Positions 8,208-54,552 of a stretch of DNA of 64,000 nucleotides are shown in pieces; within the stretch, counting starts at the first letter, position 1, and every line of letters starts with the position of its first letter. This stretch comes from Tridacna crocea (taxonomy: Eukaryota; Mollusca; Bivalvia; Cardiida; Cardiidae). The translations under genes and the position numbers were made by a program. The stretch is from positions 61,028,001 through 61,092,000 of the forward strand of contig OX031057.1 in NCBI GenBank assembly GCA_943736015.1. The letters run 5' to 3'. Under the pieces are notes generated by a model. It was not told the origin of the DNA. It saw nothing but the letters and a program-made list of their open reading frames with translations, and ran no database searches.

Positions 8208-8600
8208 TGTCACGGAGAGAGGTTAGATATATAAGCATTTGAAACCTGCCTAGCTTTTACAGCGATGCAATTTGGTGTATTTCTCTCCGTGATAGTTAAG
8301 CAACGTGCATTAGGTTAGTGCCTGGATGGGTGACCAGGTCGTTGCACGTTACATTTGGTGGCAGCGGTGGGATGATGACAACTGACGGACTGGAGTTGCT
8401 TTGCCCATGTATATTGCCCTGGTGTTTCTGTATATACATGCTCGTATAATTATAGGTCTCGGGGTGGAGACTTCTCGAAGGGGGGATTAATGTCACGGAA
8501 AGAGGTTAGATATATAAGCACTTGAAACCTGCCTTGCTGTTGAGCTAGCTTTTACAGTGATGTGGTTTGGTGTATTTCTCTCAATGACAGTTAAGCAACG
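8208..8600 (+). mobile_element. TRIM with 5S-like LTR, truncated copy
   Basis: The 5' LTR (8208-8353, TG..CA) is followed at once by tttggtggcagcggtggga (PBS position) and ends in the purine tract cgaaggggggattaa before the second LTR at 8491. The 3' LTR stops at about 8600, inside the 5S-like part, and runs into a MITE fragment. Its 5' LTR lacks about 12 bp present in the copy at 21821. Confidence 0.7.
8294..8335 (+). promoter_or_regulatory. 5S-rRNA-like internal promoter in the LTR
   Basis: agttaagca at 8294 and ggttagtgcctggatggg at 8313 match 5S rRNA box A and box C. Their spacing (19 nt between starts) is one less than in 5S rRNA. Box C matches at 20 of 23 positions by eye. Confidence 0.65.
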
Positions 8601-8617
8601 TTTGAAGTTTGTGTAGA

Positions 8618-21600: not shown

Positions 21601-24600
21601 TTTATGCGCCAATGGCGCATGGCGCAGGGGTTTCCCGATCACTGAAGACTGGATTAAAAATGTCGGATGTTTGCTGTTATTGGATATAAATAACCAAAGA
21701 TATTTCTTAATCAGGAAAGTAAAGGAAATACCTGATACAAAATTTGATTAGTTAACATGAAATTTATATCTAGTTATACATGTATACTCAACAAAGAAAG
21801 TTAAGGAATGCCTAAAAAATTGTCACGGAGAGAGGTTAGATATATAAGCACTTAAAACCAGCCTTGCTGTAGAGCTAGCTTTTACAGCAATGCGGTTTGG
21901 TGTGTTTCTCTCCGTGACAGTTAAGCAACGTGCATTAGGTTAGTACCTGGATGGTTGACCAGGGCGTTGCACGTTACATTTGGTGGCAGAGGCGGTGGGA
22001 TAATGACAACTGCCGGACTGGAGTTGCCTTACCCATGTTCTTTCCCTTGGTTTATTTGTATATACATGCTTGTATATCAGCCTCTGGGTCGAGACTTGTC
22101 GAAGGGGGGAGTAATGTCACGGAGAGAGGTTAGATATATAAGCACTTGAAACCTGCCTTGCTGTTGAGCTAGCTTTTACAGCGATGCGGTTTGGTGTATT
22201 TCTCTCAATGACAGTTAAACAACGTGCATTAGGTTAGTACCTGGATGAGTGACCAGGTCATTGCACGTTACAAAATAATGGAACAAAAGATTACCAAAAC
22301 ATACAATAATATTATTCAATTTTATTTATTTTATTAGATACATTTCATCACTTGAAAAAAGAATGATTTTGTTAGCTTAAACTTATACTAATATCCCTGT
22401 TTCGGCACTAAGCCAAGTAACCCAGGAGTCAAAGTCCTTTTTAGCTCACCTGAGCACAACGTCTGTCAAAAACTCTGGTTGCCATGGCAGCGAAATGGAA
22501 ATTTTTAACAAATTCTTTAAAAATCTTCTCCTCTGAAACTGCTGGTCGGATTTTGAAATAATTTCACAGATATGTTTCTTGGGTGACCCTTTGCAAAAAG
22601 TGTTCGTGAAATTTTGATCTGTCAAAAATTGTGGCTCTGGTGAATGGGGGCTACTTGCACTATACAGAAATCAAGGAATTCTTTGAAAATCTTCTCCTCT
22701 GAAACCGCAGGTCAGATTTTGAAATAATTTCACAGATATGTTCCTTGGGTGACCCTTTTCAAAAGTTGTTCGTGAAATTTTGATCCGTCAAAAAATGTGG
22801 CTCTGGTGAATGGGGGCTACTTGCACTATACAGAAATGAAGGAATTCTTAAAAATCCTTCTTCTCTGAAACCCCTGGTCAGATTTTGAAATAATTTCACA
22901 GATATGTTCTATGGATGACCCTCTTCAAAAATTGTCCGTGAAATTTTGATCCGTCAAAAAATGTGGCTCTGGTGAATGGGGGGTACTTGCACTATACAGA
23001 AATCAAGGAATTCTTTGAAAATCTTCTCCTCTGAAACCGTTGGTCGGATTTTGAAATAATTTCACAGATATGTTCCTTGGGTGACCCTTTTCAAAAATTG
23101 TTCGTGAAATTTTGATCCGTCAAAAAATGTGGCTCTGGTGAATGGGGGCTACTTGCACTATACAGAAATCAAGGAATTCTTTGAAAATCTTCTCCTCTGA
23201 AACCGCTGGTCGGATTTTGAAATAATTTCACAGATATGTTCCTTGGGTGATCCTTTTCACAAAGTGTTCGTGAAATTTTGATCCGTCAAAAAATGTGGCT
23301 CTGGTGAATGGGGGCTACTTGCACTTTACAGAAATGAAGGAATTCTTAAAAAATCTTCTTCTCTGAAACCGCTGGTCAGATTTTGAAATAATTTCACAGA
23401 TATGTTCTATGGATGACCCTCTTCAAAAATTGTCCGTGAAATTTTGATCTGTCAAAAATTGTGGCTCTGGTGAATGGGGGCTACTTGCACTATACAGAAA
23501 TCAAGGAATTCTTTGAAAATCTTCTCTGAAACCGCTGGTCGGATTTTGAAATAATTTCACAGAATTGTTCCTTGGGTGACCCTTTTCAAAACTTGTTCGT
23601 GAAATTTGATCCATCAAAAAATGTGGCTCTGGTGAATGGGGGCTACTTGCACTATACAGAAATGGAGGAATTCTTAAAAATTCTTCTCTGAAACTGCTGG
23701 TCAGATTTTGAAATAATTTCACAGAATTGTTCCTTGGGTGACCCTTTTCAAAAATTGTTCGTGAAATTTTGATCTGTCAAGAAACATGGCTCTGGTGAAT
23801 GGGGGCTACTTGCACTATAGGGAAATGAGGAAATTCTTAAAAATTTTTATTCTCTGAAACCGCTGGTCAGATTTTGAAATAATTTCTCAGGGATGTTCCT
23901 TGGGTGACCCTTTTCAAAAATTGTTCACAGAATTTTGATCCGTCAAGAAACATGGCTCAGATGAATGGGGGCTACTTGCACTATAGGGAAATGAAGAAAT
24001 TCTTAAAAGTTCTTCTTCTCTGAAACGGCTGGACAGATTTTGAAATGATTTCACAGAGATGATCCTTGGGTGACCCTTTTCAAAAACTGTTCCCAAAATT
24101 TGATCCATCAAGAAACATGGCTCTGGTGAATAGGGGCTACTTGCACTATAGGGAAATAAAGAAATTCTTGAAAATTCTTTTTCTCTGAAACCCCTAGTCA
24201 GATTTTAAAATAATTTGACAGAGATGTTCCTTGGGTGATCCTTGCTCTTTTGAATGGGAGCTACTTGCACTATATGGACATGATGAAATTCTTGAAAATT
24301 CTCTTTCTCTGAAACCCCTGGTCAGATTTTAAAAGAAATTTTCCGAAATGTTCCTTGGGTGACCCTTTTCAAAACTTGTTCGTAAATTTTGATCCATCAA
24401 GAAACATGGCTTTCGTGGATGGGGGATACTTGCTCTTATACAGAAATGAAGAATTCTTTAAAATTCTTCTTTTTGAAACTGATGGTCAGATTTCGAAATG
24501 AATTTTACAGGTGACCTTTTGAAAATTGCTTAGCAAAATTATAAATTTGGTTCCAATGTTTCAATACCTCAAAAAAAAAAATAGGCAATGGTCATCTCAA

Positions 24601-33600: not shown

Positions 33601-36600
33601 AATTCGTTCTGGGCTTAGTCAAAATCTGAATAGGGATGACTAAAAATTGAGTGTCATCTGGTTAATCGCACAGTGTCACACGTATCACAATCTTTCGCAC
33701 ATGTACCTGATTGGTAAAAAATTACTTTAATTATCCACAGCTCGGATGATTACTTAAAAATCATTATCAGTTTCATGAGTAAAGATTATCTAGTTTCTTA
33801 CTTTATGGTTATTAAGCTTCTATTTGTGTATAATCATATCCTATGATCTATGCTTGTAAATAGTGATGTCATTAACCATACTATTCTTACGTCATGCACA
33901 GGCCATTTTTTTGCGGAAAATATTGTGACAAAGGAAAGATTTTAGGTGAAAAAAGAAAGATTCTTATATTCTGACTTTAGCAATCTACACACTGGTTTTA
34001 ATGAAACTCCAGGTAAAACTGTGCACTAACGAAGAAATGAAAGAAAGTTTCTTGTTTTGTTTGTTTTCTCCTTTTATGTGTATAAGCACTGCATGGCGTC
34101 AAGTGCACCCACCAAGCACTCCTGAAGTACCTTTTACCAGTACTCTGGTAGATATTCTTCCCAATCTGCTGGCTGATTCCTCGTAAAAACCAAAGTCTCT
34201 CTTATATTGATCTAAATCTACATGCAGGAAATGTTCCAGTAAAATGGTCTTTAAAAGTATGTGAACCAATAATCATTCCAAATTATTTTTCTGGACATAA
34301 ATCAACGAAATTGTCAAGTAACTGTCTGGGTCCTGGACAGTTTGCCCTTTTTCACATGTATAAATCTAAGAAAAAAATGCTTATTACTTTTGACGACGCT
34401 CAAAATTAGTTTGGGCAAAGCTGAAATTCAAACTCAAACCCCCATGATTTCAAGATCTAGAATCCAGCTTGTCATCCGAAATAATATAAACGATATTTAG
34501 TCCACAAAATTAATCATTCATGTCACTGATATTGAGGCTTTGCCTTTTTCATATTATCAAATAGCTTCAATATTATAAACAATGTTGATTATTTCTTCAT
34601 TGATAAAAATGCAACATAGATCTAACTCAAGTTAGGACTATGTAGTTTTACAAAGTACTGAGTTGACTTACTGCAACGTAGATCTATCTCCAGATAGGCC
34701 TATGTTGCAGTCAGTAAATATCTAAACTGAGATAGGCCAAAATGCCAACTGACCCTTTTGGCCCCTTTAACCAACTCTTTGGACCCTAATTTTTTTTATA
34801 GCATATGTATTTATTAGTTTTAAATTAGAAAATGCAAAAAAGTCATTTTTGGAAAAATATCAAGTTAGGCCTGTGTTGCGTTCAGCCCTCGATATGTCCA
34901 GGGGCCAGTCCCTCTATGCCCAGGGGCCAGTCCGTCTATGCCCAGGGGCCAGTCCCTCTATGTCCAGGGGCCAATCCCTCTACGTCCAGGGGCCAGTCCC
35001 TCTATATCCAGGGGCCAGTCCCTCTATGCTAGGGGCCAGTCTCTCTACGTCCAGGGGCCAGTCCCTCTACACCCAGGGGCCAGTCCCTCTACGTCCAGGG
35101 GCCAGTCCCTCTATGCCCAGGGACCAGTCCCTCTATGTCCAGGGGCCAGTCTACCACATGAATACCGGTAAGTGGATTGTTAGAAAAAAAGAGTGACTAT
35201 ACTGGATTCATTATTATGAGATGGCTTGCTTGGAATTATGTTTCATGGAGATGTAGTAACCCTTTACCACAAAATGACGATTTTTGACAACCCTGAAGTA
35301 GAAGACCTTTGAAAACATAGTGGGAAAAGGAGAAAATGCTAGTAACCAGCATTTTCTCCTTTTCCCTCAATGTTTTATAGCTTTCGAAAATCAAATTTAA
35401 ATTGTTGAGTCACATTTATTTTATTGTCTGCATATGCTTTGAATTTGGACTCGTCCAAAATTTCGTCATGTGGTAAAGAGTTAAGCCCCTTTTTTTTGCC
35501 AGAGCACAACTCATTTTCAAGCCCCCACCATTAAAATGGGGGGAATATAGTGCTACACTGGTATGTGAATCGTGTTACACTGGTATGTGAATGATGAACA
35601 ACAATGCTGAGTATAAACAATCCTGTTGAATAAGACATGAAAACAAAGACAAAATGCTCAAAATAACCATTTGTTCCTTTATCAAGGAGGTTTCACTACA
35701 AAAAATAAAGACTATATCGATTGAACCTCATTTTATTAGCTCACCTGAGCACAACGTGCTCAAGGGGAGCTTTAAGGATCACCCAGTGACTATAGTCTGT
35801 TGTGCTTCAGTGTGTTGTGCATCAGTGTGTCATACGTTGTCAGCAATTCTTTAAACATCAGCTCCTCCTAAACTGCAGGGCCAATTTGGACCCAACTTGT
35901 CTACTAGAATGTTCCTTGGGAGATCCTCTTTAAAATTTATTCACAGAATTTGATTCCAATAAAAAACTGGTTGCCATGGCAACCAAATGGAATTCTCTAG
36001 GAAATTCTTTGAAAATCTTCACCTCTGAAACCTCTGGTCAGATTTTGTAATAATTTCACATGTTCTTTGGGTGACCTTTTCCAAAACTGTTTGTGAAACT
36101 ATGATCTGCCAAGAAATGTGGCTCTGGTGAATGGGGGCTTCTCTGAAACAACTGGTCAGATTTTGAAATAATTTCACAGAAATGTTCCTTTGGTGACCCT
36201 TTTCAAAAACTGTGCGAAAAATTTTGATCCGTCAAGAGACATGGCTCTTGTGAATGGGGGCTACTTGCACTTTATGGCGATGAAGAAATTCTTAAAAATT
36301 CTTCTTCTTTGACATGCCTGATCAGATTTTGAATCATTTTATGGAAATGTTTCTTTGGTGACCCTTTTCAAAAACTGTCTGCAAAACGATGATTTGTCAA
36401 GAAACATGGCTCTGGTGAATGGGGCCTACTTGCACTATACGGGCATAAAGAAATTCTTAAAAGTTCTTCTCTGAAACGGCTGATCAGATTTTGGAAAAAT
36501 TTGCTATGGTCTTGTCTCAAAAATTCAGGTGAGCAATCCAGGGCCATCTTTGCCCTATTGTTTGTTATCTGTACATGCTGTCAAGATGGACATGTATAAA

Positions 36601-53424: not shown

Positions 53425-54294
53425 TTACATGTACAAAAATTTTGTGAAGGTAGAGCTGACCTGGGGATATGGAAAAGTTTCAGCCAGCGCCATGCTTTTG
53501 CTCAACTCCTCAATCCTTCCCTTCACATTTTGATTGACTGCTGTAGTCAGGCTCAACAAATCAAATTGATCTTTTTCTGGTCTTCTCCTGTTTTCTTCCA
53601 TTACCTGTATAAAGGCTTCAACAAGAAATGAAGCTTCTGTTTCAGGCCTGCCTAGAGTTTTCCTTGGAATCGAGGACTGCATGATCAGACGATCTGCATC
53701 GATTGGGATCTTTTTAAGTTCAAAACTGATTGGTCTAGCTTTCAGTTTCTGTTGTGGGTAAACTAGTATGTAATCATCTGCTTGAATGAAGAATACTTTA
53801 GGCTTACCCCTGAATTGCTCAATCTCTCTAACCTTTTCCCAAATCTGATGGATGGGTATGAATCCATCAAAGAAATGCAAGCATTCTTGTTCCACTGAAA
53901 TGTCACTTTCTGCTACAGTTCCTTTATTTACAAAAGTGAAAAACATGAAGAAAAAGCAGTCATAATCTCTAGCAAGTGTATTGTCTTCCTCGATTGTTTT
54001 CAAGTGCTCCCAGAAATCTTTTTTTTTCAAGTTTTTCTTGTAAACTGTGTCTGCCTCATCCTGTGTGTGGTGTACAATGAATCCATGTTTCATCCTAAAA
54101 ACATCGATATCCTCGTTTCTTCCTGACTCAGGGTCCTGCACTAACTGCTTGTTATACTTTGGTATAGAAATTTCCTTATCCCAGTAGAAATGGGTTGAAT
54201 AAACAAAAAATTTCGTTTTTTTCTTTTTTGGATCTTTCCATCGGTAGTTCAGACTCTTGAATTCTTCTGATGTAAAGTAGTTTTCACCGGCCAT
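53425..54294 (-). CDS. Pseudocaspase (caspase fold, catalytic residues replaced)
   Basis: A 289-residue frame starting at an ATG in a good context (ggaaaATGG). The p20-like part spans about 25-185 and the p10-like part about 190-289. The anchor segments are unmistakable: DCFFFMFF (112-119), GKPKVFFIQ (163-171), IPIDAD (196-201), FDLLSLTTAVNQNVKG (244-259) and a terminal S..TKFLYM. Against active caspases, the catalytic His of the SHG motif aligns with Phe121 and the catalytic Cys of QACRG with Asp173. Arg216 keeps the S1-pocket arginine, while the neighbouring Trp is lost and the GSWF motif is changed to EASF. No death-fold prodomain is encoded in this exon. The frame stays open upstream to an acceptor-like ttgttgcag at 54322-54330, so an upstream exon may exist. 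A regulatory, FLIP-like role is inference. The frame is intact, with no frameshift or stop. Confidence 0.85.
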   Translation of the reverse strand: MAGENYFTSEEFKSLNYRWKDPKKKKTKFFVYSTHFYWDKEISIPKYNKQLVQDPESGRNEDIDVFRMKHGFIVHHTQDEADTVYKKNLKKKDFWEHLKTIEEDNTLARDYDCFFFMFFTFVNKGTVAESDISVEQECLHFFDGFIPIHQIWEKVREIEQFRGKPKVFFIQADDYILVYPQQKLKARPISFELKKIPIDADRLIMQSSIPRKTLGRPETEASFLVEAFIQVMEENRRRPEKDQFDLLSLTTAVNQNVKGRIEELSKSMALAETFPYPQVSSTFTKFLYM

Positions 54295-54321
54295 TTTCCA
54301 ACCTTTTAATCTCCAGATAGC

Positions 54322-54330
54322 CTGCAACAA
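54322..54330 (-). other. Possible splice acceptor upstream of the pseudocaspase start
   Basis: Reverse-strand ttgttgcag. An exon starting at 54321 would add nine in-frame codons before the ATG at 54294; they may be 5' UTR or coding. Confidence 0.4.
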
Positions 54331-54389
54331 ATACAAAGCTTTACCTATAGAACAATTGTTAAAAAGATAGTATATATTGTACATAAACA

Positions 54390-54552
54390 GAGTTTATTTC
54401 ATCAACTTGTGGTTAATATGGGGAAATATTTGCAGAAAAAGGGAAAGGTATGCGAAAATAACAAGTGCCGTAAGGCACAAGTTATTTTCACAGACCTTTT
54501 CCTTTTCAGGCAAATATTTCCCCATATTAAACACAAGCTCATGAAATGAATA
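54390..54552. repeat. Foldback hairpin, copy 1
   Basis: atttcatcaacttgtggtt..atggggaaatatttgc pairs with gcaaatatttccccat..cacaagctcatgaaat; gaaaataacaagtgc also pairs with gcacaagttattttc. Confidence 0.7.

Follow-up and report, generated by a model that had tools for sequence, protein, structure and literature searches.

Can the long terminal repeats (LTRs) of an animal element carry a working 5S rRNA promoter and, if so, how would such an element be transcribed and mobilized? This question is raised by a 452-bp repeat in a 64,000-nucleotide stretch of the Tridacna crocea genome, referred to here as the window (C2:61028001-61092000). A preliminary description had proposed a miniature LTR retrotransposon (TRIM) with 5S promoter elements in its LTRs. 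This reading is now supported by target-site duplications, alignment to 5S, a primer-binding site (PBS) and a polypurine tract, and the existence of a 5S-promoter TRIM, here called 5S TRIM, is confirmed. The explanation that we favor, with a probability of about 0.7, is a non-autonomous LTR family whose LTR has captured a 5S promoter, which is transcribed by RNA polymerase III (Pol III) and for which a Gypsy element serves as helper in trans.

Anatomy of the element and its family in the genome

The window copy has no genes and consists of two direct LTRs, which are 92.4% identical and start 294 bp apart, around a short internal region. Re-examination returned exactly the element coordinates, the equal 158-bp TG..CA repeats and the AAAT duplication that had been given for it, and likewise located the proposed PBS-like start, which is similar to the sequence complementary to a tRNA-Leu 3' end, and the polypurine tract. 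The features of both window copies are as follows.

8208..8601 (+): second 5S TRIM copy, 87% identical, PBS TGGTGGCAGCGGTGGGAT, with only the first 111 bp of its 3' LTR, up to box A
21817..21820 (+): left target-site duplication AAAT
21821..22272 (+): 5S TRIM, window copy
21821..21978 (+): 5' LTR, 158 bp, TG..CA
21821..21919 (+): LTR bases 1-99, imperfect palindrome by RNA fold, arms TGTCACGGAGAGA / TCTCTCCGTGACA
21841..21847 (+): TATATAA inside the 5' LTR, at -29 to -23 of the putative +1, by sequence
21870 (+): putative +1 of transcription, placed by the 5S distance upstream of box A
21880..21883 (+): TTTT in the 5' LTR, +11 to +14
21920..21931 (+): 5S box A region GTTAAGCAACGT, 12/12 against native 5S from +51, by 5S alignment
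21938..21944 (+): 5S intermediate element (IE) GGTTAGT, by 5S alignment
21949..21960 (+): 5S box C region, GGATGGTTGACC in this LTR, 11/12, by 5S alignment
21979..22114 (+): internal region, 136 bp
21981..22001 (+): PBS, tRNA-Leu-type, which contains 3 additional bases in the window copy
22102..22111 (+): polypurine tract AAGGGGGGAG
22115..22272 (+): 3' LTR, 158 bp
22174..22177 (+): TTTT in the 3' LTR, putative Pol III stop, with a predicted terminal repeat (R) about 14 nt long
22214..22254 (+): promoter core resembling 5S in the 3' LTR, 11/12 at box A and 11/12 at box C, by 5S alignment
22273..22276 (+): right target-site duplication AAAT

The window also holds two other open frames, namely a 322-aa ORF with a caspase domain (53425-54393, -; Peptidase_C14, E 4.2e-15) and, in the ORF list, a frame encoding a short repeated peptide of the SLYAQGPV type (34771-35196, +). 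Elsewhere in the assembly, the mitochondrial contig C31 (29,009 bp) contains large tandem arrays with units of 235 bp (4.4 copies) and 97 bp (51.6 copies) (L079:4001-10000). The cytochrome b encoded on this contig shares 88% identity with its counterpart in Hippopus hippopus and 73-76% with those of three other Cardiidae, which places the host with this family.

Searching the 1.05-Gb genome for further copies, as the preliminary description had suggested, revealed a dispersed family. Forty of 787 first-look candidates were scored, so that copy counts are lower bounds: besides the window copy there are at least 44 near-full matches of 88-94% identity, some of which overlap in arrays (48 scored rows), and 45 of the 48 rows, the window copy counted, cover nearly the whole element at 88-100% identity. 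Target-site duplications were checked at 41 loci, 39 elsewhere in the genome and two in the window, and two of the 41, each with one element end missing, were left out of the count. Among the remaining 39 two-ended loci, the 4-bp duplication is exact at 28, agrees at three of four bases at seven and at no more than two bases at four; a 5-bp duplication was found at none of them. Two of the four poorly matched loci (L036 and L032) have a left flank that resembles the internal end, as expected for broken arrays, and arrays of three or four LTRs occur at L012, L016 and L025. Five of 13 further LTR sites have no adjoining internal region and represent solo LTRs, three of them with exact 4-bp duplications and one (L144) with three of four bases; the fifth (L151) shows a 6-bp flank match at odds with the 4-bp rule. 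A family in which most copies lack duplications or the pair of PBS and polypurine tract would have spoken against an LTR element, and PBS and polypurine tract are present in most of the 45 internal regions.

Elements with two LTRs measure 447-465 bp (n=35), well below the 1000-bp limit for TRIMs. Divergence between the two LTRs of these elements ranges from 0 to 9.5% (median 3.8%), which indicates that movement of the family was spread over a long time; one copy has identical LTRs, and a divergence of 7.6% puts the window copy with the older members. As a separate observation, six of the seven one-base duplication mismatches among the 39 loci (L010, L014, L018, L021, L022 and L025), and likewise the solo LTR L144, carry an A on the left side beside TG, which is the base that precedes the 3' LTR within the element. 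This suggests that integration sometimes leaves in place a flap base from the unprocessed end. Beyond the clam, an LTR 25-mer had no match in a viral contig collection, and box C followed by the PBS had none in collections of viral contigs and genome contigs.

The 5S-derived core and putative transcription of the LTR

The native 5S genes of T. crocea lie in arrays on C1 and C3; of 19,100 loose candidates, 47 were taken through scoring, and all 47 passed the Rfam cut-off. LTR bases 100-140 align with +51 to +92 of native 5S, and some 43 bases of 5S are kept. The claim that each LTR holds a 5S-like segment was borne out by local alignment, in which the 5' and 3' LTRs of the window copy score 46 and 39, compared with top scores of 26 and 28 over 5000 dinucleotide shuffles per LTR and of 23 among the 158-nt stretches scanned elsewhere in the window, both family copies excluded. 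Across the family, 84 LTRs score 29 to 54 against native 5S; GTTAAGCAACGT is exact in only 51 of them, GGTTAGT in 73 and GGATGGGTGACC in 72. Boxes A and C of the 5' LTR, which the preliminary description had placed at near-native spacing, do align with the clam's own 5S at 12 and 11 of 12 positions, and the spacer from box A to the IE, although unrelated to native 5S, is only one base shorter. No clear 5S similarity was found in the LTR beyond bases 100-140, and one gapped alignment that extends upstream in the 5' LTR is given no weight.

That this likeness arose by chance is a practically negligible prospect. In its favor, the full-length Rfam 5S model returned no report on the locus even at E up to 10; this silence is explained by the retention of only about +50 to +92 of the gene. 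With none of 5000 shuffles scoring above 26 when the LTR itself scores 46, and with a range of 29-54 over 84 LTRs, chance is ruled out. Such dispersed, promoter-bearing 5S-like sequences are a warning for the annotation of bivalve 5S genes.

Counting back from box A would place +1 at LTR base 50, and the TATATAA upstream is spaced similarly to TATAAATA in one class of native 5S genes, where it lies at -31 to -24; other classes have other AT-rich upstream stretches. LTR bases 60-63 (+11 to +14) hold a T4 run in 34 of 35 5' LTRs and in 33 of the 35 3' LTRs, and 29 of the 35 elements have exactly one such run per LTR and none elsewhere. This scarcity of further T4 runs is no greater than in shuffles (P 0.27 to 0.62), and T4 depletion was therefore dropped as a signature of Pol III. 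The polyadenylation signals AATAAA and ATTAAA are absent from all 35 elements. The anatomy is consistent with transcription by Pol III, or by Pol II and Pol III jointly, as the preliminary description had proposed. A point against Pol III is that the T4 at +11 of the 5' LTR should end some transcripts early.

Upstream of the 5S core, LTR bases 1-99 are predicted to form a hairpin. In the 5' LTR of the window copy this segment folds at -46.9 kcal/mol (z -7.75), and the fold recurs in the 3' LTR (z -4.50) and in the second window copy (z -4.14); the remaining 59 nt of each LTR are unremarkable (z -1.83 and -2.21). In 34 of 35 copies, the predicted fold has 10 or more of the 13 arm bases paired. 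In the comparison of copies, 93.1% of cells pair in the hairpin as against 39-56% in six slid controls, a figure that is high because the structure was derived from the family itself. Covariation is absent to thin, with two double changes in the hairpin and four in one of the six slid controls, and it was dropped as proof of the structure, since the copies have diverged too little. For the putative RNA from 21870 to 22177, pairing between the 5' and 3' ends is predicted (z -4.57).

The hairpin and the TATA box each invite another reading. Strongly paired 13-bp inverted arms within a 99-bp palindrome might mark a foldback or MITE-like DNA element, the whole being a hairpin DNA repeat and no retrotransposon. 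This is very improbable, given that the duplications flank the pair of 158-bp repeats and that PBS, polypurine tract and TG..CA ends are all in place. A more serious contender, though still an unlikely one, accepts the LTR element and has it transcribed by Pol II from TATATAA, with the 5S piece as an inert leftover from the capture of a SINE3 or 5S fragment. The position of the TATA box would also put a Pol II start near LTR base 50, the 5S part is not specially conserved among copies (0.967 versus 0.961 for the rest of the LTR), and Cassandra-like TRIMs without a 5S promoter are described as having Pol II TATA boxes in the accessible text of one report (PMC10853983). Against this, box A, IE and box C are near-identical to native 5S while the spacer between box A and IE is unrelated to it, neither AATAAA nor ATTAAA occurs in the 35 elements, and a similar TATA stands at nearly the same place in one native 5S class. 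Pol III transcription from the captured 5S promoter thus remains the preferred reading.

According to this preferred model, TFIIIA and TFIIIC would bind box A, IE and box C, and TFIIIB would sit on the TATA box near -29. Pol III would then start near LTR base 50, read past the weak T4 at +11 and through the internal region, and stop at the corresponding T4 of the 3' LTR, yielding an RNA of about 308 nt with a repeat (R) of about 14 nt at both ends. Because the palindrome of LTR bases 1-99 has the putative start near its apex, the two ends of this RNA would be expected to pair. A Ty3/Gypsy element primed by tRNA-Leu may provide Gag, reverse transcriptase and integrase in trans.

Priming by tRNA-Leu and candidate helper elements

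The replication signals of the family point to tRNA-Leu as the primer. Of 45 internal regions in the family, 37 measure 133 bp, 3 bp less than that of the window copy; the internal region starts most commonly with TTTGGTGGCAGAGGTGGGAT or TTTGGTGGCAGCGGTGGGAT, the latter type in 13 of the 45. Genome-wide, the 20-nt PBS forms were found 151 times (reversed control, 0), in part within other element families. A tRNA 3'-end pattern that spans both PBS variants is found at seven genome places, five complementary to the C form and two to the A form, and ARAGORN identifies all seven as tRNA-Leu (AAG or TAG); the clam's own tRNA-Leu genes (AAG/TAG) thus match the family PBS exactly at their 3' ends. 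At the other end, 41 of 45 internal regions have a run of at least 8 purines within their last 18 bases. A further PBS variant, TGGTGTCAGAAGTGGGAT, is present at L146 (C3:17545845-17546402) and in two of the 45 internal regions. We take it to match tRNA-Leu CAA, and a primer switch within the family is possible.

The preliminary description had called for an autonomous partner that shares the PBS. From 100 of the 151 exact PBS sites, 40 stretches were examined, picked around sites other than already-known 5S TRIM copies. Twenty-two match the 5S TRIM LTR, one (L092) matches its internal region only, and 17 match neither; a longer stretch around the internal-region-only site (L129) also has no LTR. 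Twelve of the 17 non-matching stretches (L101, L102, L107, L109, L110, L113, L117, L120, L121, L126-L128) share one flank and constitute a second tRNA-Leu-primed family. The one copy of it followed further (L130:1-2714) shows a 396-bp repeat, 100% identical, and an ORF that resembles gag (Retrotrans_gag, E 1.7e-4, which falls short of the Pfam cut-off). Two additional stretches, L131 and L132, hold between them gag-like, protease, reverse transcriptase, RNase H and integrase domains, so that the clam does have coding genes of tRNA-Leu-primed retroelements; the 6 kb examined for each of the two showed no terminal repeats. At the PBS flanks, none of the Leu-primed coding elements examined resembles 5S TRIM.

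Relation to Cassandra, Ajax and other TRIMs

The preliminary description had also called the element an animal counterpart of plant Cassandra and knew of no described molluscan equivalent. An animal counterpart as such is not new: in 2024 Kojima named Ajax from the nemerteans Notospermus geniculatus and Lineus longissimus, an animal TRIM that combines part of a 5S promoter with a tRNA-Leu primer site, and the class TRIMp3, that is TRIMs with a Pol III promoter (PMC10886601; here and below, statements on this paper follow its accessible parts). Among the papers found from 2023 onwards, only this one uses the term TRIMp3. For molluscs, a survey of titles and abstracts in a largely open-access literature found no 5S-bearing TRIM. 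The clam element has the properties of a TRIM, with a length below 1000 bp, two LTRs, a tRNA PBS, a polypurine tract and a duplication of constant length, and it carries the small-RNA-gene promoter in the LTR that distinguishes TRIMp3. 5S TRIM is therefore a new family of a known class, and what is new here is the mollusc host, the duplications of 4 bp instead of 5 bp and the hairpin layout.

Ajax is the closest parallel, and 5S TRIM might be Ajax in the strict sense, homologous to the nemertean family by descent or by horizontal transfer. The two are of comparable size (421 and 434 bp versus 447-465 bp), the LTRs of both hold only the promoter part of 5S with the identical set of three motifs, box A, IE and box C, and both have a tRNA-Leu primer site. 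However, Ajax makes 5-bp duplications and 5S TRIM 4-bp ones; the host belongs to another phylum, and the accessible text mentions no palindromic LTR for Ajax (PMC10886601). Homology in this strict sense is improbable. A 5S core, a tRNA-Leu primer and a length of about 450 bp, found in a mollusc with a different integration signature, rather favor a repeated origin of TRIMp3 elements.

Other families share single traits with 5S TRIM. Plant Cassandra likewise bears a 5S promoter in TRIM LTRs (PMC7215508, PMC10853983, both in their accessible parts) and forms tandem LTR-internal arrays and self-complementary LTR folds (PMC7215508), and the sequence between its boxes is variable (PMC10853983). Its R of 18 bp, set by Pol III start and stop (PMC10886601), parallels the R of about 14 nt predicted here. 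In contrast to 5S TRIM, which keeps some 43 bases of 5S, Cassandra is a plant element of 565-860 bp (PMC10886601). Helenus is also a TRIM whose LTR holds a promoter of Pol III type, and in animals it has 4-bp duplications as in 5S TRIM and was tied to Gypsy by Kojima; its promoter, however, is derived from tRNA rather than 5S, and its molluscan members are reported from Pteriomorphia (PMC10886601), whereas the host of 5S TRIM belongs to Cardiidae. The bivalve biv-TRIM shares tandem arrays and solo repeats with 5S TRIM and differs in its repeats of 202-218 bp, its internal region of 77-80 bp and, in the accessible text, the lack of an unambiguous PBS (PMC6934838). The text of that paper does not contain the term 5S rRNA, and the biv-TRIM internal motif TGATCCCAAAGGAC has no match in either window copy at up to three mismatches.

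These comparisons allow a fuller and more tentative scenario, which we regard as possible though doubtful in its entirety: a third independent capture of 5S by a TRIM, after those in plants and nemerteans, served by a Gypsy helper that makes 4-bp duplications, with a palindromic LTR that has start and stop near its apex and a self-closing Pol III RNA of about 308 nt. If true, end-to-end closure of this RNA would allow efficient first-strand transfer even with so short an R.

Among the published cases found, the clam family makes molluscs the second animal phylum with LTR elements that carry a 5S promoter. With at least one 5S TRIM copy that has identical LTRs, in a chromosome-scale genome, the use of Pol III by animal LTRs becomes directly testable.
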